DNA from: Cetobacterium somerae ATCC BAA-474
GTDB taxonomy: Bacteria > Fusobacteriota > Fusobacteriia > Fusobacteriales > Fusobacteriaceae
Assembly (NCBI RefSeq): GCF_000479045.1
Contig: NZ_KI518173.1
Coordinates: 7,822-71,821, forward strand
Direction: 5' to 3'
DNA length: 64,000 nucleotides
Shown: positions 29,994 through 62,363 of the stretch, one piece after another
Numbering within the stretch: position 1 is the first letter of the stretch
Layout: every line of letters starts with the position of its first letter
The notes under the pieces: model-generated
The model's database searches: none
What the model was told of the DNA's origin: nothing
The model's input: the letters and a program-made list of their open reading frames with translations, nothing else
Translations under genes and position numbers: made by a program

Positions 29994-30015
29994 ATTATTA
30001 TAAAACTAAATAAAA

Positions 30016-30166
30016 GTTTTTAGGTGCTTAGGCATAACAAGGAAGTAGGTGTAAATCCTACACAGCCTCCGCTACTGTAATGAGGATGAAACTATATAAC
30101 CACTGGAATAAAATCTGGGAAGGATAGGAGTAAAGTGATTCTAAGTCAGGAGACTTACCTAAAAAC
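30016..30166 (+). promoter_or_regulatory. Cobalamin (B12) riboswitch aptamer
   Basis: P1 is GTTTTTAGGT (30016-30025) paired with ACCTAAAAAC (30157-30166). Conserved core blocks are present: GCCTCCGCTACTGTAATG and the B12 box AAGTCAGGAGACTTACC (30143-30159). This is the class I cobalamin riboswitch layout. With promoter and terminator it fills the 29955-30270 gap. Confidence 0.93.
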
Positions 30167-30197
30167 TACACAAAATTGTTAGGAGTGGACAAGTGTG

Positions 30198-52052: not shown

Positions 52053-52125
52053 TAAAAAAGTAGAGGGCAATTATCACATAATCCCTCTACTCAATACTGA
52101 GTTACCTTTGAATAACTTTTAAACG
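52053..52125 (-). repeat. Third, 3'-only copy of the structured RNA repeat, overlapping the mocR end
   Basis: On the minus strand AAAGTTATTCAAAGGT, a short spacer, and the terminator AGTAGAGGG...CCCTCTACT-T6 (52059-52091) match the 3' ends of the RNA at 50.6 and 10.3 kb. The terminator loop reads ATTATGTGATAATTG, keeping UGUGAU of UGUGAUGG. Here the unit supplies the last codons (...LKVIQR), the stop codon and the terminator of the MocR gene. Confidence 0.7.
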
Positions 52126-53496
52126 ATCAATACCATCTATAATTTCTGGAATATCTGTAGTTGCAAATCTCACTCTGAAATATTGATTTTTCTGATTATC
52201 TAAAAAGAAAACATTTCCAGAAAGAAGTAGAATATTATTCTCTTTACATTTTAAGTAAAATTGGCTCGAATCTATTGTATCATTTAGTTTTATCCAAACA
52301 TAAAAACCACCATCAATATTATAAACAACATCTAAAAAAGGTATCTCTTTTAGTTTCTCAGTTAAAACGAGATATCTTTCTCTATAAATTTTGATTAGAT
52401 TTTCTATATGTAATTTCAGAAAATTGCCTTTCAAAAAATTAGCTAAAACTTTTTGATCAAGAGCTGATGTTGATATATCTGTGGTAAACTTAACAGTCAC
52501 TATTTTAGAAATAAGCTCAGTTGGTGCTATCATATATGCTAATCTTAAACCTGGCATAATTATTTTAGAAAATGATTTAATGTAAATAACAGTCTTATTA
52601 TCAGAATCTAAAGATTTTATAGAGGTTCTTGGAGTATTGTAAAATGAAAGTTCTGATGCAAAATCATCTTCTACAATCAATGTGTTATATTTTTTAGCTA
52701 ATAAAATTAACTTTTGTTTCTTTTCTTCACTCCAAGAAACACCTGTGGGGCAACTAAAATCCATTGTCGCATATATGAAAGTTATTTTTTCTTCAGATAA
52801 GATTTTTTCCAATTGAGTAAGATTAAAACCATCCTCTTCCATTTCTACAGGGTAAATTTTACAATTTGTTTTAAAAGTATTTAAAGCACCATGATAAGTT
52901 GGATTTCCTACAATTATTTTATTTTTTCTTTTAGACGAAAGCGTTTTTAATATCAAATCCAATCCTTGCTGTGAACCGCTAGTTATTTGTATCTCATCTT
53001 TAGATACAAAAATACCTTTGTCTTCAATATTTTTCTTAAGCACTTCTCGAAGTTCCTCTAAACCTTGAGTAGGATGATATAGCATAATTTTAGGGCCATA
53101 TTCTTCTAAAACATCACTATATAATTTTTTAAAAATTTGAAATGGATAAACATCTTCTGAAGGAGTTCCACTTGCAAAATTAATAAGATTATTTTGTTTT
53201 AATTGACCAACTTTAAAAGTTTCAATAAGATTATTAGATGGTGTATTGTAAAATAAAGATTCTTTAGATTTTACAAATATTCCAATGCCACGTTTTTTTA
53301 TAATATATCCCTCTTTTTCTAAAAGAGTAAAAGCTTTCATAATTGTAATATTATTTAGTTTATACTTTAAAGCAAGTTGTCTAATTGATGGTAGTTTAGA
53401 GTTTTCTGGATATTCATTTTTTTCAATTTTATTTTTCAAATCTTCATAAATTTTTAAATAAATAGGTATTTTCTTCTCTTCTGAGTTAATTTTCAT
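52102..53496 (-). CDS. MocR/PdxR-type regulator (GntR helix-turn-helix fused to aminotransferase fold)
   Basis: 464 residues. GntR winged helix at 10-75 (LKIYEDLKNKIEKNEYPENSKLPSIRQLALKYKLNNITIMKAF) followed by a class I aminotransferase-like domain with PTQGLEELREVLKKNIE, SGSQQGLDLILK, VEDDFASELSF and the PLP Lys in YIKSFSKIIMPGLRLAY. MocR proteins bind PLP and regulate B6, GABA or amino-acid genes. It is divergent from an AlaX-type gene with ACTGTTATA direct repeats between. Its 3' end lies in the dispersed RNA repeat. Confidence 0.9.
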   Translation of the reverse strand: MKINSEEKKIPIYLKIYEDLKNKIEKNEYPENSKLPSIRQLALKYKLNNITIMKAFTLLEKEGYIIKKRGIGIFVKSKESLFYNTPSNNLIETFKVGQLKQNNLINFASGTPSEDVYPFQIFKKLYSDVLEEYGPKIMLYHPTQGLEELREVLKKNIEDKGIFVSKDEIQITSGSQQGLDLILKTLSSKRKNKIIVGNPTYHGALNTFKTNCKIYPVEMEEDGFNLTQLEKILSEEKITFIYATMDFSCPTGVSWSEEKKQKLILLAKKYNTLIVEDDFASELSFYNTPRTSIKSLDSDNKTVIYIKSFSKIIMPGLRLAYMIAPTELISKIVTVKFTTDISTSALDQKVLANFLKGNFLKLHIENLIKIYRERYLVLTEKLKEIPFLDVVYNIDGGFYVWIKLNDTIDSSQFYLKCKENNILLLSGNVFFLDNQKNQYFRVRFATTDIPEIIDGIDRLKVIQR

Positions 53497-53652: not shown

Positions 53653-54426
53653 ATGAAAACAGAAAAAATATATTATAAAAATCAATTTCAAACATCATGT
53701 GAAGCAGTTTTAATTGCAAGTACAGAAAATGGATTAATATTTGATAAATCTGTTGCTTATCCAGAGGGCGGAGGGCAGATAGGAGATATTGGAGTTTTAA
53801 TTAGATGTAAAGATGGATCTGAGATTCCATTTTACAACACAACAAAAATTAAGGGACGAAATATTTTCTTAAATGATTTTCCTAGCATAAAAGTAGAAAA
53901 CCAAATTGTACATCATATAGACAATGATTATGAATTTGAAAAAAATGAAAAATTTCTTATAAAGTTAGATAGTGTAAAAAGAGCTCAAACAACTCTTCAT
54001 CACTCTGGTTTGCATCTGGCTTTAATGGTTTTAGAAGAGATGTTTTCAGGTATTGATAAAAAAATAGTTGGTGCTAAAATAACTGATAAATATGGAAGAC
54101 TTGATTTTTTAATAGATTTTAAATTTACTCCAGAGCAAATAGCTCATATAGAATCTCGTTGTAATGAATATATCGACAAAAATATTCCAATAAATATATT
54201 TTCTCATCCAGAGGAAAATGAAGCTCTATATTGGAAATGTGATAATTTTATTGTTCCTTGTGGTGGAACTCATTGTGAAAATACAAAAGATTTAGTGGGA
54301 ATAAAAATTAAGAGAAAGAGCATTGGTAAAACATCTGAAAGGTTAATTGTTGAATTACCTTTTAATGAAGATTTTTTAAAATTATACAGCTATCCGAGCT
54401 TCTTATTTTCTATTGAAGAAAATTAA
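53653..54426 (+). CDS. AlaX-like alanyl-tRNA editing domain protein
   Basis: 257 residues resembling the editing part of alanyl-tRNA synthetase: AYPEGGGQIGDIG (about 36-48), TTLHHSGLHLALMVLEEM (zinc His pair HHSGLH, about 116-121), GAKITDKYGRLDFLIDF and VPCGGTHCENTKDL (CGGTH, zinc Cys/His). Such trans-editing proteins deacylate Ser- or Gly-tRNA(Ala). Size fits AlaX-M/L. ATG follows AAGGGAG. Divergence from a MocR regulator suggests regulation with amino-acid supply; some AlaX-like proteins in such contexts may act on free amino-acid esters, but that is speculation. Confidence 0.85.
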   Translation: MKTEKIYYKNQFQTSCEAVLIASTENGLIFDKSVAYPEGGGQIGDIGVLIRCKDGSEIPFYNTTKIKGRNIFLNDFPSIKVENQIVHHIDNDYEFEKNEKFLIKLDSVKRAQTTLHHSGLHLALMVLEEMFSGIDKKIVGAKITDKYGRLDFLIDFKFTPEQIAHIESRCNEYIDKNIPINIFSHPEENEALYWKCDNFIVPCGGTHCENTKDLVGIKIKRKSIGKTSERLIVELPFNEDFLKLYSYPSFLFSIEEN

Positions 54427-54554: not shown

Positions 54555-56030
54555 TTAATACCCTATAAAATATGCAATAACGATTGCAGCAGCTCCGATA
54601 CTTAGCCAGATTCCCATAAGAGGAGCCACCCACTTCACCCATTTTTCATATGAGATTTGTGAAATTGCAAGGTAACTCATAAGTCCTCCTGCAGTTGGAT
54701 TGATATAGTTTGTAAATCCATCTCCATATTGAAAAGCTAAAACAACGGTTTGTCTAGAAACTCCTATCATATCCCCTAAAGGAGCCATGATGGGCATAGT
54801 TGTTGCAGCTTGTCCACTTCCTGATGGAATAAATAGATTTGTTATAATCTGAACGCAATACATAAGTAAAGCTGAGATAACTCCTGGCAAGGATGAAATT
54901 TTGCTAGAGAGATAGAATAAAATTGTATCTATAATTTGTCCATCCTCTAACACAACTAGGATTCCACGAGCTAATCCCACAGCAAGAGCTCCAAATACAA
55001 CTCCTCTAGCTCCGTCTAAAAAGTTATTTGCAGAATTAGTTGGAGAGATTCCTGCAACAAAACTAGAAGCAATTCCCATGAACATAAATATACTAATTAA
55101 TTGTTCTGTTCCCCATCCGTGTTTTAAAACTCCATATGTTAAAGTTATAAATCCAACTAACATAACTAAAAGAACACCTTTTTGTCTAAGAGTTAAATCT
55201 GGAATTTCTTGATTATTTGTTGATGTATTAGACATAGCTTTTTGTTTAACCTCTAAATCAAATACCACACTGCTAAAAGGATTTTCCTTTACTTTTCTAG
55301 CATATCTCATAATATATAAAACTGTAGCAACGTATAAAACTATATAAACTGCTACTCTAAATCCCATTCCAGAGTAAATTGGAAGTCCAGCTATTGAGTG
55401 AGCAACTCCAACTGTAAATGGATTTATAAATCCACCAATGAAACCAACTCCAGCTCCCAAAGCTACCATAGCCATTCCAACCATAGCATCAAATCCAAGA
55501 GCTCTTGCTAAAAGAACTCCAAGTGGAACAAAAGCTATAGCTTCTGTGTTCATACCAATTGCTACTCCTCCAATTGAAAATACAAACATAACAACTGGGA
55601 TTAAAAGCATACCTTTATTTCTGAATAGGTAAGCCACTTTTGCTATTCCAGAATCAATGGCACCTGTTTTTTGAATCATATTAAAAAATCCACAAACCAA
55701 AAATGTGAAAAAAACAATTCCAGAGGTTGCCTGAAGACCTCTAATTAATACAGTAAATAGATTGTGCTCAGTAAAAGAGAAAAACTTAACAGGTGTATTG
55801 GCAACATATGTAAAAGTTTCTGGAGCTATAATCATTCTACCAGAATTGACATCTTTAACTCTTTCATAAACACCAGCAGGAATTATATAGGTTCCTATAA
55901 ATGATAAAATAATCATTCCAGCAATAATTACATAGGTATGAGGAATTTTAAATTTCTCTATTTTAAGTTCCTTTCCTTTTGTACCCACTCCGCCACTATT
56001 TTTTAAATTTAAATTTGATTCACTACTCAT
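54555..56030 (-). CDS. yfcC: YfcC-family transporter (amino-acid/carboxylate permease)
   Basis: 491 residues with about 12 membrane segments. Family blocks: PHTYVIIAGMIILSFIGTYIIPAG, GGVAIGMNTEAIAFVPLGV, GAGVGFIGGFINPFTVGVA, IPSGSGQAATTMPIMAPLGD and QYGDGFTNYINPTAGG. YfcC/DcuC-like proteins are predicted basic amino acid or C4-dicarboxylate antiporters; the substrate here is not proven. It follows murI by 15 bases and shares its leader-controlled promoter. The cluster suggests an amino acid, N-acyl amino acid or muropeptide-derived substrate. Confidence 0.88.
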   Translation of the reverse strand: MSSESNLNLKNSGGVGTKGKELKIEKFKIPHTYVIIAGMIILSFIGTYIIPAGVYERVKDVNSGRMIIAPETFTYVANTPVKFFSFTEHNLFTVLIRGLQATSGIVFFTFLVCGFFNMIQKTGAIDSGIAKVAYLFRNKGMLLIPVVMFVFSIGGVAIGMNTEAIAFVPLGVLLARALGFDAMVGMAMVALGAGVGFIGGFINPFTVGVAHSIAGLPIYSGMGFRVAVYIVLYVATVLYIMRYARKVKENPFSSVVFDLEVKQKAMSNTSTNNQEIPDLTLRQKGVLLVMLVGFITLTYGVLKHGWGTEQLISIFMFMGIASSFVAGISPTNSANNFLDGARGVVFGALAVGLARGILVVLEDGQIIDTILFYLSSKISSLPGVISALLMYCVQIITNLFIPSGSGQAATTMPIMAPLGDMIGVSRQTVVLAFQYGDGFTNYINPTAGGLMSYLAISQISYEKWVKWVAPLMGIWLSIGAAAIVIAYFIGY

Positions 56031-56045
56031 ATAGCACTCCCCTTT

Positions 56046-56822
56046 TTAAATTTTGTGTACATCAACCATTTTTTGATCCAATAGCTGTTCCCCAACAGTT
56101 ATAAAATTTTCTAAATCTCCAGTTACATAGTAACTTATTTTATTATAATTTTTTAAATTTGCAATACTTTTTAATTTTTTTAATTGTTCCCCAACTAATC
56201 TAGCAGTTTCCTTAGCTGGATTAACTATAGTACACTTAGCTATATCTCTAATTTTTTCTTCTAAGTACGGGTAGTGAGTGCAACCTAAAATTAGAGTATC
56301 AATATCCTTAGGTAAGTTTTCAATATAATTTTTTAAAATATTGTGAGACTCCTCGTTGTCCTTCCAACCTTTCTCTATCATAGGGCAAAGTAGTTCGCAT
56401 CCTTGTTGGTATACCTCATAATTTTCATTTAAATTTTGTATAGCATTTTTATAAGCATTTGTTTTAGCTGTCAATGGAGTTGAAAGTACCCCGATTTTTT
56501 TATTTTTACTTTCCCTAAGTGCCATAGTAGCTCCTGGATTTATAACGCCTATAATTGGGAGAGTAGGAAATTTTTCTTTTAAATAATCTAGAGAAGCCAC
56601 AGTGGCTGTGTTGCAAGCTATAACTATGAGGTCGACATCTTTGTTTATTAAAAATTCACTGATTTTATAACAAAGCTTTTGAATATCCTCAATTGTTTTA
56701 GTTCCATATGGAGAGTTAAAACTATCACCATAATAAATAAATTCAGCAGAACTTAGCTCTTTTAATAACTCTTTTAAAACTGTTAACCCGCCAACACCAG
56801 AATCAAAAACTCCTACTTTCAT
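56046..56822 (-). CDS. murI: Glutamate racemase
   Basis: 258 residues of the Asp/Glu racemase fold: MKVGVFDSGVGGLTVLKEL, YYGDSFNSPYGTKT, VIACNTATVASLDYL (first catalytic Cys near 70) and TLILGCTHYPYLEEKI (second catalytic Cys near 180). It interconverts L- and D-glutamate. Usually it supplies D-Glu for peptidoglycan, but beside LysA, a D-aminoacylase and a permease it may also run toward catabolism of D-Glu. ATG follows AAGGAGG. A leader terminator (56855-56916) lies between its promoter and its start. Confidence 0.93.
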   Translation of the reverse strand: MKVGVFDSGVGGLTVLKELLKELSSAEFIYYGDSFNSPYGTKTIEDIQKLCYKISEFLINKDVDLIVIACNTATVASLDYLKEKFPTLPIIGVINPGATMALRESKNKKIGVLSTPLTAKTNAYKNAIQNLNENYEVYQQGCELLCPMIEKGWKDNEESHNILKNYIENLPKDIDTLILGCTHYPYLEEKIRDIAKCTIVNPAKETARLVGEQLKKLKSIANLKNYNKISYYVTGDLENFITVGEQLLDQKMVDVHKI

Positions 56823-56854: not shown

Positions 56855-56950
56855 AAAAAAAAGTCTAAAATTATTCTTACATAGTTTTGAAAACTATTTT
56901 AAAGATAATTTTAGACCTCATTTACTTTTAGAATCATAAATAAGTGTATT
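56855..56950 (-). promoter_or_regulatory. Leader hairpin-terminator element of murI-yfcC (copy A)
   Basis: Minus-strand order: AATACACTTATTTAT (56936-56950), a hairpin CTTATTTA...TAAATGAG, then a terminator with 12-bp arms GTCTAAAATTAT (56905-56916) and its complement (56863-56874), an inner ATAGTTTT-GAAAACTAT stem, and T8. It is related in order and sequence to the element at 57406-57481 on the plus strand. Lying between a promoter and murI, it must be anti-terminated for expression. Confidence 0.72.
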
Positions 56951-56982
56951 TTTTTATTTCTTCATTTATTTAATTAATAGAT

Positions 56983-57011
56983 GTTATACCTCAAGTTTTC
57001 ACTTCTGTCAA
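56983..57011 (-). promoter_or_regulatory. Promoter of the murI leader transcript
   Basis: On the minus strand TTGACA (57006-57011), 17-base spacer, TATAAC (56983-56988). Confidence 0.8.
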
Positions 57012-57033
57012 ATTTTTGTTTTAATTTTTTTAT

Positions 57034-57064
57034 TTGACTTTTAATCGTTCTTGGAGTATATACT
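57034..57064 (+). promoter_or_regulatory. Promoter of the DUF3870 gene
   Basis: TTGACT (57034-57039) with TATATA at 57057-57062 (17-base spacer) or TATACT at 57059-57064 (19-base spacer). It is divergent from the murI promoter, with 22 bases between the two -35 boxes. Confidence 0.7.
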
Positions 57065-57101
57065 ATTCATAGGAATTATTTGATACTAGGGGAGATAGTT
57101 G

Positions 57102-57407
57102 ATGAAAGAAAAGTATATTGTTGGGACTGCAAAAACGTCTATAGACAATGCAATAACTAAAAATTATAACAGCTTTTTTGTAGGGTTTATCATTGATGAA
57201 AATGGAAAAATTTTAGATGTTGAAGCTTCTGCAATTTTAAAGATAACGAATGATTTTATTAAAAAAATCTTTGTTGGAAAAGACTTTATAAAAGATTTTG
57301 AAGAGATAAGTTCTATCATATTAAAAAATTATTTAGGATCCTCTCAAAAATCTATAATCGTAGCCTATAAAGACGCTATAAAAAAATATAATCAATCAGC
57401 GAATTAA
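57102..57407 (+). CDS. DUF3870 family protein
   Basis: 101 residues. The family pattern is visible: YIVGTAKTS, FFVGFIIDENGKILDVEASAIL, FIKKIFVGKDF and YLGSSQKSIIVAYKDAIKKY. DUF3870 proteins are small and of unknown function, and I recall them near amidohydrolase and transporter genes. ATG at 57102 follows GGGGAG. It is bracketed by the two related leader elements, and the right-hand one begins at its stop codon. It could be an RNA-level or metabolic sensor for the cluster; there is no direct evidence. Confidence 0.82.
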   Translation: MKEKYIVGTAKTSIDNAITKNYNSFFVGFIIDENGKILDVEASAILKITNDFIKKIFVGKDFIKDFEEISSIILKNYLGSSQKSIIVAYKDAIKKYNQSAN

Positions 57408-57481
57408 TACACTTATTTATCAAAAAAAACGTAAATAAGGTCTAAAATTCTAATTAATATAGAGTTTTAGACCTTTTTTTG
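57406..57481 (+). promoter_or_regulatory. Leader hairpin-terminator element before lysA (copy B)
   Basis: AATACACTTATTTAT (57406-57420) is followed by a 9-bp hairpin CTTATTTAT/GTAAATAAG (57412-57420 with 57431-57439), then terminator AAGGTCTAAAA (57437-57447) paired with TTTTAGACCTT (57465-57475) and a T run. The last bases of the first hairpin are the first bases of the terminator stem, so the two compete. It lies between DUF3870 and lysA. Confidence 0.72.
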
Positions 57482-57515: not shown

Positions 57516-58826
57516 GTGAAATATTTAGGAACAATGACTAATGTAGATGGAGTTTTAGAAATAGGTGGAGTTTCTGTAAAAGAGTTGCAGGAAAAGTATG
57601 GTACTCCTCTTTATATTTACGATTTAGAGTTTATGGAGAAAAATATAAAAGATTTAAAGGAATCTTTTGTCAGTGAAAAATTTAAAACAACTATAGTTTA
57701 TGCTTCAAAAGCTTATTTATCTAAAGGAATGACTCAAATTATTGAAAAGAATGGACTTGATATTGATGCTGTTTCAGGTGGAGAGCTATATACTATTTTA
57801 ACTTCGAATTTTCCTACAAAAAGAGTTCATATGCACGGTAATAATAAATCTTTAGAAGAGATTGAGATGTGTGTAAAAAACGGGATTGGGAGTATTATTT
57901 TAGATAATAGATTTGAAGCTGAAAAAGTTGCACTTGTATGTAGAAAATTTAATAAAAAAATGAATGTTATGTTAAGACTAAATATTGGAATAGATGCTCA
58001 TACTCATGAATATATAAAAACATCAAAGCACTCATCTAAGTTTGGGGAGTCTATTTTTGATAAAGATGTTGTTAAAATAGTTAAGGATATTGTAGATAGA
58101 CCTGAGTTAAATTTTTTAGGATTTCATAGTCACATTGGATCTCAGATTTTTGATGAGTTAGCTTTTTGCGAAGGTGTTGAAACTATGGTTGAGTTCACAA
58201 AGAAAATTTCAGAAAAACTTAATATTTGCATTCCAGATATAAATATTGGAGGAGGTTTTGGGGTTAGATATACCCAAGAGGATACTGATGTTAATCTAAA
58301 AAAAATAATGAAAAAGATTATCAGATGTTTAGAAAATAGTTTAGTAAAAGAAGGGATGGATATAAAAAATGTGACTATAGAACCTGGGCGATCTATCGTG
58401 GCTCAAGCTGGAAGTACTCTTTATACAGTTGGTGGTGAAAAAGAAACATATGGTGGAGAAAAATATATTTTTATTGATGGAGGGATGACAGATAATATAA
58501 GACCAGCTCTTTATCAAGCTAAATATGAGAGTATCGTTGCAAATAAACTTAATGAAACAGAGAAAGAGATTGTAACTATTGCTGGTAAATGTTGTGAATC
58601 GGGAGATATCATAGCTAAAAATGTAAGGTTAGGAAAATGTAGGGAAAATGATTTGATTCTTGTTAGCTGTACAGGGGCGTATGGACACTCTATGAGTAGT
58701 AATTACAATAAAGCTTTAAAACCAGCAGTGGTATTTGTAAAAGATGGAAAAAGTTATCTTGTTTCTAAAAGAGAAAGTTATGATGATTTAACAAAAAATG
58801 ATATACTATTGGAAAATATATTTTAA
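57516..58826 (+). CDS. lysA: Diaminopimelate decarboxylase
   Basis: 436 residues of the PLP fold III family: YGTPLYIYD, YASKAYLS (PLP Lys), DAVSGGELYT, HMHGNNKS, FHSHIGSQI, NIGGGFGVRY, EPGRSIVAQAG and the CCESGD signature with the active-site Cys. LysA removes CO2 from the D-centre of meso-diaminopimelate to give L-lysine. GTG start at 57516 follows AAGGAGG. No other lysine-biosynthesis gene is adjacent. The neighbours (D-aminoacylase, racemase, serine hydrolase) suggest salvage of peptidoglycan-derived DAP. Confidence 0.93.
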   Translation: MKYLGTMTNVDGVLEIGGVSVKELQEKYGTPLYIYDLEFMEKNIKDLKESFVSEKFKTTIVYASKAYLSKGMTQIIEKNGLDIDAVSGGELYTILTSNFPTKRVHMHGNNKSLEEIEMCVKNGIGSIILDNRFEAEKVALVCRKFNKKMNVMLRLNIGIDAHTHEYIKTSKHSSKFGESIFDKDVVKIVKDIVDRPELNFLGFHSHIGSQIFDELAFCEGVETMVEFTKKISEKLNICIPDINIGGGFGVRYTQEDTDVNLKKIMKKIIRCLENSLVKEGMDIKNVTIEPGRSIVAQAGSTLYTVGGEKETYGGEKYIFIDGGMTDNIRPALYQAKYESIVANKLNETEKEIVTIAGKCCESGDIIAKNVRLGKCRENDLILVSCTGAYGHSMSSNYNKALKPAVVFVKDGKSYLVSKRESYDDLTKNDILLENIF

Positions 58827-58839
58827 GGAGATGCAATTT

Positions 58840-60009
58840 ATGAATATAGAGCTTTTAAAAAAACACAGCGAAAATATAAAAAATTGGTTAGTAAAGGTGA
58901 GAAGAGATTTTCATGAGCACCCAGAATTAGGAACTCAAGAGTTTAGAACTCACGATAAAATTTGTGAATATTTAGATGAGATGAGTATTCCTCATAGAAC
59001 TTCATTTGACACAGGAGTTATAGCTGAGATTGAGGGAGAAAATAAAAATATAACGATAGCATTAAGAGGAGATATAGATGCACTTCCTATACAGGATATA
59101 AAAAGTGTTGATTATGCTTCAAAAAATAGTGGAATTTGCCATGCTTGTGGGCACGATGTACATACAACTGTAGTTTTAGGAGTGGCAAAATATTTTTATG
59201 AAACAAAGGAGAAGCCACCTGTAAATATAAGATTATTTTTCCAACCTGCTGAGGAAACTGTTGGAGGAGCAAAACCTATGATTGAAGATGGAGCTCTTGA
59301 TGGAGTTAATGCTGTTTATGGATTACATGTAGATGAAACTATAGATGTTGGAAAAATTGGAATAAAGTACGGAGCTATGAATGCTTCTTCAGATACCTTA
59401 AAAATAAAGATAAAGGGAGAAAGTTGTCATGGTGCTTATCCAAGTAGAGGTGTGGATGCACTTTTAATAGCATCTCATGTGATTATTGCTCTTCAGAGTA
59501 TTGTGAGTAGAAATTTAGATGCTAGAGAATCTGGTGTAATAACAATTGGAACAATAAATGGTGGAACTGCTGGGAATATTATATCAAATGAGATTGAGCT
59601 TAGAGGAACTTTGAGAACTTTAGATCCAGATGTTAGAGCTAGAATGAAAAAAAGAATTGAAGAGATTGTAACAACTCTACCTTTAGCTTTTGGTGGAAAG
59701 GGTGAGATTGATATAGAGCCTGGTTACACAGCTTTAATAAACCATGATAAATCTGTAGATATTATTAAAAAAAGTGCTACTGAACTTTTTGGAGAGAATA
59801 GTATCTATGAAAAAAAGTTAGCCAATATGGGAGTGGAAGACTTTGCGTATTTCATTGAAAACACTGAGGGAGCATTTTTTACTTTAGGAGTTAGAAATAC
59901 TGAAAAAAATATAAAAACTCAGGCTCATAATGGAAACTTTGATATTGATGAAGAAGCAATTGTTAATGGAGTAATGATGCAAATATTAAATGTATATAAC
60001 TCAATTTAA
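58840..60009 (+). CDS. M20-family amidohydrolase (aminoacylase / N-acyl-DAP deacetylase-like)
   Basis: About 389 residues. Metal sites are CHACGHDVHTTVVLG (Cys and His ligands near 98-104) and FFQPAEETVGGAKPMIEDG (catalytic Glu pair), with the dimer-domain block HGAYPSRGVDALLIASHVI. The family removes acyl groups from amino acids: hippurate hydrolase, aminoacylase, N-acetyl-diaminopimelate deacetylase. ATG at 58840 follows AAGGAG, which itself overlaps the lysA stop; an earlier in-frame ATG at 58798 is inside lysA. Its position after lysA makes an N-acyl-DAP-like substrate possible. Confidence 0.9.
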   Translation: MNIELLKKHSENIKNWLVKVRRDFHEHPELGTQEFRTHDKICEYLDEMSIPHRTSFDTGVIAEIEGENKNITIALRGDIDALPIQDIKSVDYASKNSGICHACGHDVHTTVVLGVAKYFYETKEKPPVNIRLFFQPAEETVGGAKPMIEDGALDGVNAVYGLHVDETIDVGKIGIKYGAMNASSDTLKIKIKGESCHGAYPSRGVDALLIASHVIIALQSIVSRNLDARESGVITIGTINGGTAGNIISNEIELRGTLRTLDPDVRARMKKRIEEIVTTLPLAFGGKGEIDIEPGYTALINHDKSVDIIKKSATELFGENSIYEKKLANMGVEDFAYFIENTEGAFFTLGVRNTEKNIKTQAHNGNFDIDEEAIVNGVMMQILNVYNSI

Positions 60010-60019
60010 GGAGGAAATC

Positions 60020-60778
60020 ATGGAAAGATTTAATCAACTAAAATCTAATTTACAAAATATAATTAATGAATTTTCAGGAAAAGTAGGCATTATAGTTAAG
60101 GTTGATGGAGAAGAGATATTTTCTAAAAATGAAAGTAAAATTTTTCAATCAGCTAGTTTGATAAAGCTTTTTATTTTAGAGGCACTCTTAGAAAAAATAT
60201 CTCAAGGTGAATTATCTTATAGTGATAAAAAAAGTGTGGATTCAATGGATAAAGTTCCAGGCTTTGGAGTTTTAAAAGTTTTAGATGATAATTTAAGTGT
60301 GACAATAAAAGATTTAGCGACACTTATGATAACTTTAAGTGATAATACAGCTACGAACATGTTGATAGATATTTTAGGAATAGATTACATTCAAAGTTTT
60401 ATTGAGAAAAAAAATTACTATGAGACTCAACTTCAAAGAAAAATGTATGACTCTGAAGCTAGAGAGAGGGGATTAGATAATTTTACAAGTGCTAGAGATA
60501 CCTTAAAGGTTTTAGAAAATCTATATTGTGATGAGACAGCACTTTTTATTTTAAAAAATCAACTGTGTAACTCTAAAATTCCTCTATATTTTTTTAGAAA
60601 GGTAGAGGTGGCTCATAAAACTGGTGATTTAACAAATATAGAGCATGATGCAGGAAGAATATTTTTCAAAAATAGCTTTGTAGATTTGATTATTTTAGCA
60701 GAGGGAGAAAATAAAGAAGCCGTTCTCTTAAATAATAGATTGGGTGAATGTATATATGAAAACTTTAAAAACTGTTGA
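60020..60778 (+). CDS. Class A beta-lactamase-fold serine hydrolase
   Basis: About 252 residues. The three catalytic blocks are present: SASLIKL (SxxK near 45-48), SDN in TLSDNTATNM (near 112) and KTG in VAHKTGDLTN (near 205). There is no signal peptide, so it should act in the cytoplasm, unlike secreted beta-lactamases. Such cytoplasmic homologues are probably peptidases or amidases for D-residue substrates. ATG at 60020 follows AAGGAGG. It overlaps the following D-aminoacylase gene by 23 bases. Confidence 0.85.
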   Translation: MERFNQLKSNLQNIINEFSGKVGIIVKVDGEEIFSKNESKIFQSASLIKLFILEALLEKISQGELSYSDKKSVDSMDKVPGFGVLKVLDDNLSVTIKDLATLMITLSDNTATNMLIDILGIDYIQSFIEKKNYYETQLQRKMYDSEARERGLDNFTSARDTLKVLENLYCDETALFILKNQLCNSKIPLYFFRKVEVAHKTGDLTNIEHDAGRIFFKNSFVDLIILAEGENKEAVLLNNRLGECIYENFKNC

Positions 60779-62363
60779 TGAAAAAAAATATGATTTAGTT
60801 ATAGAGAGTGGAACTGTTGTATTTGGGAATCTCAAAGAAAAAGAGATTTTAAATATAGGAATAATGGGAGATAAAATTGAGGCTGTCTCTAAAGATAAAC
60901 TAGTTGGAAAAAAAATTATTGATGCTAGGAATCTTTATGTAACTCCTGGATTTATAGATATTCATAGTCACTCAGATATCTCTGGATTTATAGCTGAAAG
61001 TTGTACAAGTAAAATTTATCAAGGAGTGACATCAGAAATTAATGGAAATTGTGGAATAGGAATCTCTCCGTGGTCAGATGAGAACAGGGGAAATCTTAAA
61101 AAGTATATTCAAACTCATTCAGATATAAACTATTATCCAATAGATTTAAATAAAACTAAATCTTTTTTAGATTTAAAAAAATTTTTAGAAAAGGGAAAAC
61201 TTGTAACTAATCAAGGATTTCTTGTTGGAGCTGGATGTATTCGAATAGCTATAATGGGGTTTAAGTCAAGTGAGGCCAATGAAAGTGAAATTGAAAAGAT
61301 GAAGATGCTTTTGGAAAAACAGTTTGATGAGGGCGCCCTTGGAATATCTTTTGGATTGATATATCAACCAGGAAATTTTATGAGCCAAAGGGAGATTTTA
61401 GAGCTTTTAAAAGTTGTAAAAAAGTATGATAAAGTCGCATCCTTTCATATGAGAGATGAAGTTAATGAGATTGAAAAATCCATAGAAGAGGTTATCTATT
61501 ATGGCAGAGAAACTAAAGCAAAGGTCAATGTTTCCCATTTAAAAGTTATGAATAGGAAAAATTGGGGAAAGTCTAGAAAAATTATAGAGATGTTAGAGAA
61601 AGCTTGGAAATCGGGAGTATTAATATCTTTTGATCAATATCCCTATGAAGCTACTTGTACCAACCTTTTTGTTCTTATACCTCAAAATGTTTTTGATGGA
61701 GATATAGAAACTTTTATAAAAGAGATTCCTAATTTCTCTGACAAAGTGATGTCTTTAATAAGGGAAAATATTGAAAAGAGAGGGGGAAGTAAAAACATTG
61801 TAGTATCTAATAGTTATTTAAAAGATACCTATTTCAATGGAAAAACAATCTCTGAGATTTCAAAATATCTGAATTTAAGTGAGGAAGAAACTATTTTATA
61901 TATACTTGAAAAATCTAAAGGAAAGGCTCAAGCCATCTATTTCTCTATGGATTTAGAGGATGTAAAGGAGTTTTTCAAAAGTGATTTGGGAGTTATTGCT
62001 AGTGATGGAAACTCTTTACCAATGGAGGATAAATTTGAATTGGGAAATCCTCATCCGAGAAATTTTGGAACGTTTCCAAAATATATATGGATGAATAAAG
62101 ATGAGGTTTCAATAGAAAAAATTATAAATAGAATTACCGAGAGACCAGCTAAACTCTTTAGATTAGAGGGGCGTGGAGAGATTAAAAATGGAAACTTTGC
62201 AGATATTACCATTTTTGATTTGGATAAAATTAAAGATAGCTCCACTTTTCAAAATTCTTTTCAGTGTCCTGTAGGGATAGAGTATGTTGTTATAAATGGA
62301 AAGATTGTTTTGGAAGAGGGAACTGTATTTACGGCTAAGGCTGGAACTATTTTAGTGAATTGA
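60756..62363 (+). CDS. N-acyl-D-amino-acid deacylase (D-aminoacylase)
   Basis: About 535 residues of the amidohydrolase fold: VTPGFIDIHSHSDI (metal His pair), GNCGIGISPW (bridging Cys), FHMRDEVNEIEKSIEE, VNVSHLKVMNRKNWGKS and SDGNSLP, closing GEIKNGNFADITIFDLD. The enzyme frees D-amino acids from N-acyl-D-amino acids, with Glu- and Asp-specific forms known. ATG at 60756 is preferred, but a GTG at 60744 is possible. The start lies inside the serine hydrolase gene (translational coupling). It is last in the operon, ending at a terminator. Confidence 0.92.
   Translation: MKTLKTVDEKKYDLVIESGTVVFGNLKEKEILNIGIMGDKIEAVSKDKLVGKKIIDARNLYVTPGFIDIHSHSDISGFIAESCTSKIYQGVTSEINGNCGIGISPWSDENRGNLKKYIQTHSDINYYPIDLNKTKSFLDLKKFLEKGKLVTNQGFLVGAGCIRIAIMGFKSSEANESEIEKMKMLLEKQFDEGALGISFGLIYQPGNFMSQREILELLKVVKKYDKVASFHMRDEVNEIEKSIEEVIYYGRETKAKVNVSHLKVMNRKNWGKSRKIIEMLEKAWKSGVLISFDQYPYEATCTNLFVLIPQNVFDGDIETFIKEIPNFSDKVMSLIRENIEKRGGSKNIVVSNSYLKDTYFNGKTISEISKYLNLSEEETILYILEKSKGKAQAIYFSMDLEDVKEFFKSDLGVIASDGNSLPMEDKFELGNPHPRNFGTFPKYIWMNKDEVSIEKIINRITERPAKLFRLEGRGEIKNGNFADITIFDLDKIKDSSTFQNSFQCPVGIEYVVINGKIVLEEGTVFTAKAGTILVN

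Follow-up and report, generated by a model that had tools for sequence, protein, structure and literature searches.

To our knowledge, only a handful of protein families control transcription through antitermination. In the hut operon of Bacillus subtilis, the small regulator HutP is encoded by the first gene, a terminator precedes the catabolic genes and read-through depends on the substrate, with spaced NAG triplets serving as the HutP target. The pyr regulon contains several attenuator copies, one of them located directly behind the regulator gene, and its regulator PyrR stabilises an anti-antiterminator and so lowers expression. A description of PyrR is given in PMC4347634. In the case of ANTAR antiterminators such as EutV, hairpins held by the protein exclude the terminator, and the target consists of dual hexaloops with A at position 1 and G at position 4 (PMC8934654).

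Within the 64,000-nucleotide stretch of Cetobacterium somerae DNA analyzed here (the window), a gene encoding a DUF3870 protein is followed by a terminator and then by catabolic genes, an arrangement that resembles the hut attenuator in logic only, with DUF3870 in the place of the regulator. As in the pyr regulon, more than one copy of an attenuator-like element is present, with an antiterminator opposed to a terminator. The original prediction, made from the sequence of this locus, described two related hairpin-terminator leaders that bracket the DUF3870 gene, and both copies were indeed found: copy A in the divergent leader of murI and copy B starting at the DUF3870 stop codon (Table 1). The strands of the P1 hairpin are CUUAUUUAU/GUAAAUGAG in copy A and CUUAUUUAU/GUAAAUAAG in copy B, with a loop of 10 nt in both; the compensating G-U that had been predicted corresponds to the third pair, which is U-G in copy A and U-A in copy B. 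Across the 3.07-Mb genome, the core pattern was present at these two copies only, while a reversed-pattern control gave no match. Both copies folded far more stably than their dinucleotide shuffles, with z values of -4.3 for copy A and -5.9 for copy B.

Table 1. Window coordinates of the two elements, their alternative folds, promoter-like sites and the genes of the cluster.
Feature	Position	Strand	Remarks
Copy A element	56964..56855	minus	AATACACTTATTTATGATTCTAAAAGTAAATGAGGTCTAAAATT, then terminator and T run
Copy A antiterminator	56900..56964	minus	P0, AC/GU step, bulged A and P1; nascent-RNA folding; R2 match of 58.5 bits
Copy A P0	56964-56954 with 56908-56900	minus	UGAAGA..UAA with UUA.UCUUUA; folding
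Copy A P1	56944-56936 with 56925-56917	minus	CUUAUUUAU with GUAAAUGAG; folding
Copy A intrinsic terminator	56855..56916	minus	Stem 56916-56863, U run 56862-56855; folding
Copy B element	57401..57481	plus	AATACACTTATTTATCAAAAAAAACGTAAATAAGGTCTAAAATT, then terminator and T run
Copy B antiterminator	57401..57450	plus	P0, AC/GU step, bulged A and P1; folding; R2 match of 73.4 bits
Copy B P0	57401-57405 with 57446-57450	plus	GAAUU with AAUUC; folding
Copy B P1	57412-57420 with 57431-57439	plus	Folding
Copy B intrinsic terminator	57437..57481	plus	Stem 57437-57475, then U run; folding
Promoter-like site, murI-yfcC transcript	56983..57011	minus	-35 TTGACA 57011-57006, 17-nt spacer, -10 TATAAC 56988-56983; consensus match only
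Promoter-like site, DUF3870 operon	57034..57062	plus	TTGACT, 17 nt, TATATA; consensus match only
YfcC/DcuC-type permease, second gene behind copy A	54555..56030	minus	Pfam DcuC 1.2e-101; nearest NCBIfam model YfcC, below cut-off
murI, glutamate racemase, first gene behind copy A	56046..56822	minus	Pfam Asp_Glu_race 1.6e-22; NCBIfam TIGR00067 above cut-off
DUF3870 gene (101 aa), candidate (anti)termination factor	57102..57407	plus	Pfam PF12986, 1.7e-30
lysA-type PLP decarboxylase, first gene behind copy B	57516..58826	plus	TIGR01048 430 bits, above cut-off
M20 amidohydrolase/peptidase	58840..60009	plus	Pfam 1.9e-37; TIGR01891 above cut-off
Serine hydrolase, class A beta-lactamase fold	59990..60778	plus	Pfam Beta-lactamase2 1.8e-49
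D-aminoacylase-type amidohydrolase	60756..62363	plus	Pfam Amidohydro_3 4.5e-19; function by family resemblance only

Beside the cluster, the window encodes a MocR/GntR-type aminotransferase-regulator (52102-53496, minus) and an AlaX-like editing protein (53653-54426, plus), both possibly linked to amino-acid handling. Clear Rfam matches were also obtained elsewhere in the window for a cobalamin riboswitch (30005-30176, plus) and a purine riboswitch (2018-2117, minus).

Folding of the growing transcripts revealed the same order in both copies: the 9-bp P1 preceded the AC/GU step and its bulged A, and P0, an outer helix that pairs with the 5' arm of the terminator, came last. This antiterminator was the minimum-energy nascent fold of both copies until the 3' arm of the terminator had been made, after which the terminator prevailed (the complete leaders fold at about -23 and -21 kcal/mol, the antiterminator alone at about -8 kcal/mol). 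Since the terminator is the more stable fold once complete, termination is the expected default, and read-through would need the antiterminator to be held. The P0 sequence differs between the two copies, with pairing maintained in each, and tracks their different terminator arms. A competition for three bases had been proposed for copy B, and the 3' AAG of its P1 hairpin (57437-57439) does lie inside the terminator stem; nevertheless, the competition exceeds these three bases, as P0, which had been overlooked, takes further terminator bases. The short hairpin overlapping the first terminator bases is reminiscent of the RAT of BglG, SacY and LicT, and would likewise need a protein to hold it, although both the hairpin and its sequence are different. 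Taken together, the elements are very likely attenuators with competing folds.

The 5' side of copy B P0 overlaps the DUF3870 stop codon (57405-57407), which would suit a translation-coupled mechanism in which a ribosome finishing at that codon masks P0 together with the 5' strand of P1, to the benefit of the terminator. We consider this extremely unlikely, given that copy A follows a promoter-like site with no coding sequence of note before P1, and that in Clostridia, described below, 19 to 243 nt separate the element from the preceding DUF3870 match. Leader-peptide attenuation was rejected for copy A, where no convincing ORF was found.

DUF3870 was detected in 18 of the 98 genomes of the window's phylum that were searched. 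A protein-only scan of the genome contigs with one sequence recovered just five loci. In other genera, the same element was present directly 3' of the DUF3870 stop codon and preceded D-aminoacylase-like or permease genes. P0 and P1 formed at the same place in all 15 elements folded, with differing P0 sequences, in a set that includes the two window copies and several close, some near-identical, orthologues. As the exact core pattern proved too strict over the 98 genomes, of which four matched, it was replaced by a covariance model, R2, the kind of check that the original prediction had called for. R2 detected 16 sites in 10 genomes, nine of them carrying DUF3870. The element does recur in other genera, upstream of functionally related genes. 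The tenth genome (G052) contains a strong element (68.6 bits) with no DUF3870 gene detectable by profile and protein search in a 97%-complete draft; a lost regulator, a gap in the draft or another factor are possible readings of this exception. The G052 element (L005/L052, G052:C54:27114-27182) forms the stand-alone leader of a permease gene.

In this subtype, loops of 4 to 16 nt vary freely and the only strongly conserved unpaired letters are those of the bulge and the internal loop. Considered alone, the window subtype showed weak covariation, with two pairs changed on both sides, which did not go beyond shuffles.

Several variants were also observed. In one genome with several DUF3870 copies (L032/L036, G027:C1:384232-384512), one copy looks frame-broken near its 3' end and the element behind it is intact. 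Two other genera have a different hairpin-terminator with a DUF3870-murI operon, either upstream (L020-L025) or downstream (L031) of DUF3870, whose terminator arm UUACUU/UUACUC is matched, as read by eye, by an upstream AAGUAA/GAGUAA. In three loci (L015, L018 and L019), a strong hairpin (AAAGCUUU..AGGCUUU) lies within the end of the DUF3870 coding sequence, just before a terminator, and gene and switch may overlap there.

Related structures with the same architecture also occur behind the DUF3870 genes of Clostridia, where most have an additional upper hairpin, P2, with an NNNCC loop. In one Clostridial subtype (alignment A3, 24 sequences), comprising a P0 of UGCUG/CAGYA into the terminator arm, a 9-bp P1 and P2, P1 was 95.8% paired with six of its nine pairs changed on both sides. 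The whole-structure covariation score of A3 was 0.442, compared to 0.265 in shuffles, none of 500 shuffles reached that value, and register slides destroyed the signal. A second subtype (A5, 19 sequences) was 96.2% paired, with seven of its 14 pairs showing changes on both sides and none of 500 shuffles reaching its score, and its P0 paired to the terminator arm in all 19 sequences, as UUUAACU/AGUUAGA or AGCC/GGCU. The strongly conserved unpaired letters of the Clostridial elements are the CC of the P2 loop. A P2 with a pentaloop ending in CC was found at 56 of 140 DUF3870 loci, some of them in the window's phylum and a few being chance matches inside coding sequence. Such a loop is not rare enough by itself, as CC ranks fourth among loop endings in an unfiltered count, and its weight comes from its fixed position and from the covariation of the stem.

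R2 matched no Clostridial element, and a single sequence model thus does not cover all subtypes. Conversely, the Clostridial model R1 matched, with 40 bits, a DUF3870 locus of the window's phylum (L053) that was not in its training set. From the shared architecture, the link to DUF3870 and the L053 match, all subtypes would appear to belong to one family. The mutually exclusive folds, the recurrence in other genera and in another phylum and the compensatory changes lend good support to the common antitermination signal that had been proposed. Tandem R1 elements were observed behind one DUF3870 gene at G511:C1:4788-5006 and G484:C41:141638-142011, with starts 155 and 310 nt apart.

A strict intrinsic terminator was located no more than 260 nt from the stop codon in 91 of 140 distinct DUF3870 genes, compared to 7.9% in shuffles. 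Likewise, where the next gene was co-directional and at least 60 nt away, a terminator occupied 73 of 102 DUF3870 gaps vs. 29 of 88 control gene pairs. The control value illustrates that co-directional genes are often separated by terminators, and the elements could accordingly be partial terminators without regulation, whose role would be to adjust the amount of DUF3870 relative to the products encoded downstream. This seems highly unlikely to us: a plain partial terminator needs neither an upstream hairpin, nor a P0 complementary to its arm, nor compensatory changes, and both copy A and the L020-L025 leaders precede the first genes of operons. At equal protein identity, DNA downstream of DUF3870 was better conserved than DNA upstream, with 33% vs. 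10% of pairs alignable at 60–70% identity and 70% vs. 27% at 70–85%, downstream pairwise similarity being informative only above 60% protein identity.

The association was also examined genome-wide in 247 genomes of one Clostridial order, 69 with and 178 without DUF3870. R1 (E ≤ 0.001) matched in 37 genomes, of which 35 carry DUF3870 and the other two gave the weakest matches (E above 2e-4), while R3 matched in 27 genomes, all with DUF3870. Combined, both models matched in 46 of the 69 genomes with DUF3870 vs. 2 of the 178 without, these two being marginal; the corresponding p-value of 4e-30 is overstated, as the models were trained on DUF3870-adjacent sites and most sites adjoin DUF3870. Because of this training, the adjacency in cis, with a DUF3870 gene immediately 5' of 37 of the 54 R1 sites and 25 of the 29 R3 sites, and some of the co-occurrence follow from how the models were built. 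Fairer evidence is provided by 20 remote sites (16 R1 and 4 R3), which are separated by over 1 kb from the nearest DUF3870 gene or lie on a different contig. Every one of them occurs in a DUF3870-containing genome, and those inspected precede dicarboxylate/glutamate symporter, class-III aminotransferase, CoA-transferase and transport genes. Further, 10 genomes have two DUF3870 paralogues, each with its own RNA subtype behind it, as would be expected of a protein–RNA pair. Neither R1 nor R3 was found directly behind 59 of the 120 DUF3870 genes of this order, some of which have other hairpin-terminators and some none.

The original prediction considered either a small riboswitch or the target of an RNA-binding antiterminator, of which the latter fits better. 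If the RNA itself bound the pathway metabolite, DUF3870 would be a frequently co-regulated gene, a situation with a precedent in the yjdF riboswitch, where an RNA follows one protein family of unknown function (PMC4793209). The attenuator architecture, which is typical of riboswitches, the metabolic gene contexts and the G052 element without DUF3870 would all agree with this. However, the elements have few conserved unpaired letters and track one protein family, their subtypes share architecture rather than sequence and differ between paralogues within one genome, and the genes downstream cover diverse chemistries, among them CoA transferases and aminotransferases as well as epimerases and permeases. 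In addition, the yjdF riboswitch is a 5' UTR element with a conserved four-stem core, whereas the DUF3870-linked element is usually located 3' rather than 5' of the DUF3870 gene. A riboswitch is therefore unlikely.

Regarding the genes presumably controlled, the first gene behind each of 123 DUF3870 genes most often encoded an acetyl-CoA hydrolase/CoA-transferase (40), followed by L-Ala-D/L-Glu epimerase (13), class-III aminotransferase (12), D-glutamate cyclase (9) and Asp/Glu racemase (6); permeases, D-aminoacylase-type amidohydrolase (3), serine hydrolase (2) and lysA (2) were also represented. The D-amino-acid/muropeptide theme put forward for this locus thus recurs, in the epimerase, cyclase, racemase and D-aminoacylase genes, but is not universal, given the size of the CoA-transferase class. 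The setting of the window is thus a single branch within a wider theme of amino acids and dipeptides. Coordination of the murI-yfcC and lysA arms, which had also been proposed, is plausible from the sequence that they share.

The protein itself was recognized as DUF3870 (PF12986) with 105.5 bits, compared to a Pfam gathering cut-off of 22, and this was its sole significant Pfam family; by sequence, it would appear to differ in family from HutP. The AlphaFold2 model (mean pLDDT 90.5, pTM 0.82) comprises three strands followed by three helices, and a fold search with it returned IscU-type scaffolds, lipoate-ligase domains and a CO-dehydrogenase domain with middling scores. Known RNA-binding folds were not among the neighbors listed, an absence that proves little, and neither was HutP, which remains compatible with homology to HutP. 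The IscU-type resemblance of the model neither supports nor excludes RNA binding. A PDB sequence search with the DUF3870 profile gave nothing significant. No study of DUF3870 function was found in the literature searched, where the one paper naming DUF3870/PF12986 treats the neighboring DUF3869 in Bacteroides and, according to its abstract, does not address the function of DUF3870.

This lack of a recognizable RNA-binding fold, together with the element kept in G052 without DUF3870, would be accommodated if another protein or a small RNA were the factor, with DUF3870 being a pathway protein that heads these operons by chance. Known antiterminator families do not fit, however. The CAT_RBD domain (PF03123; LicT/BglG) was absent from all 10 element-bearing genomes of the window's phylum, in searches whose positive controls worked, and ANTAR was absent from four of them (G025, G043, G051 and G052); control by known LicT and by known ANTAR proteins was rejected on these grounds. 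Moreover, the ANTAR hexaloop pair is not present, as the element has one P1 with a variable loop, or a P2 with an NNNCC pentaloop. With remote sites confined to DUF3870-containing genomes and the RNA subtype going with the DUF3870 paralogue, a different factor is decidedly unlikely, and DUF3870 is, by its distribution and position, a strong candidate for a new RNA-binding gene regulator. The suggestion in the original prediction to test DUF3870 for RNA binding thus points in the right direction.

We propose that each copy acts as a transcription attenuator with two mutually exclusive RNA folds. The first would be an antiterminator made of P0 and the 9-bp P1, with P2 in most Clostridial relatives, whose 3' strands coincide with the beginning of the terminator; the second, an intrinsic terminator, would be more stable when fully transcribed and hence the default. 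A factor holding the antiterminator for long enough would allow RNA polymerase to read into the downstream genes. This factor would most likely be DUF3870, whose gene usually lies immediately upstream of the switch. It would control its own operon as well as additional copies of the element, the murI-yfcC leader among them, and a pathway substrate or product would serve as the co-signal, which for the window might be D-glutamate or a fragment of a muropeptide. On balance, the distribution and position of DUF3870 lead us to favor it as the RNA-binding factor of the attenuator, probably an antiterminating one; we infer that it promotes read-through instead of enforcing termination, and likewise the ligand and the co-regulation of the two arms.

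In its operation, this system works like hut, pyr and LicT/ANTAR attenuation, yet by the features tested it falls outside LicT, ANTAR and PyrR. DUF3870 differs from PyrR in family and fold, not being of the phosphoribosyltransferase type, and its linked element is a helical P0-P1-P2 structure rather than the spaced NAG triplets of hut. Searches against Rfam 15 returned no family for the elements, either with the gathering score for the window or with E values up to 1 for 15 related loci. The elements belong to an extensive and hitherto undescribed set of RNA on/off switches adjoining DUF3870 genes in very different bacteria. We see an even chance that DUF3870 founds, as its first known member, a class of antiterminators that bind RNA sequence-specifically and have an IscU-like fold. 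Paralogues within one cell would each read their own hairpin and thus control distinct gene clusters for amino acids, dipeptides and acyl-CoA, in Clostridia as well as in the window's phylum. If true, this would add a further widespread antiterminator family, explain how many anaerobes control D-glutamate, L-Ala-D-Glu, aminotransferase and CoA-transferase operons, and give DUF3870 a testable role, and the paralogue-specific hairpins would offer material for studying the evolution of RNA specificity in a small fold and for orthogonal transcription switches.
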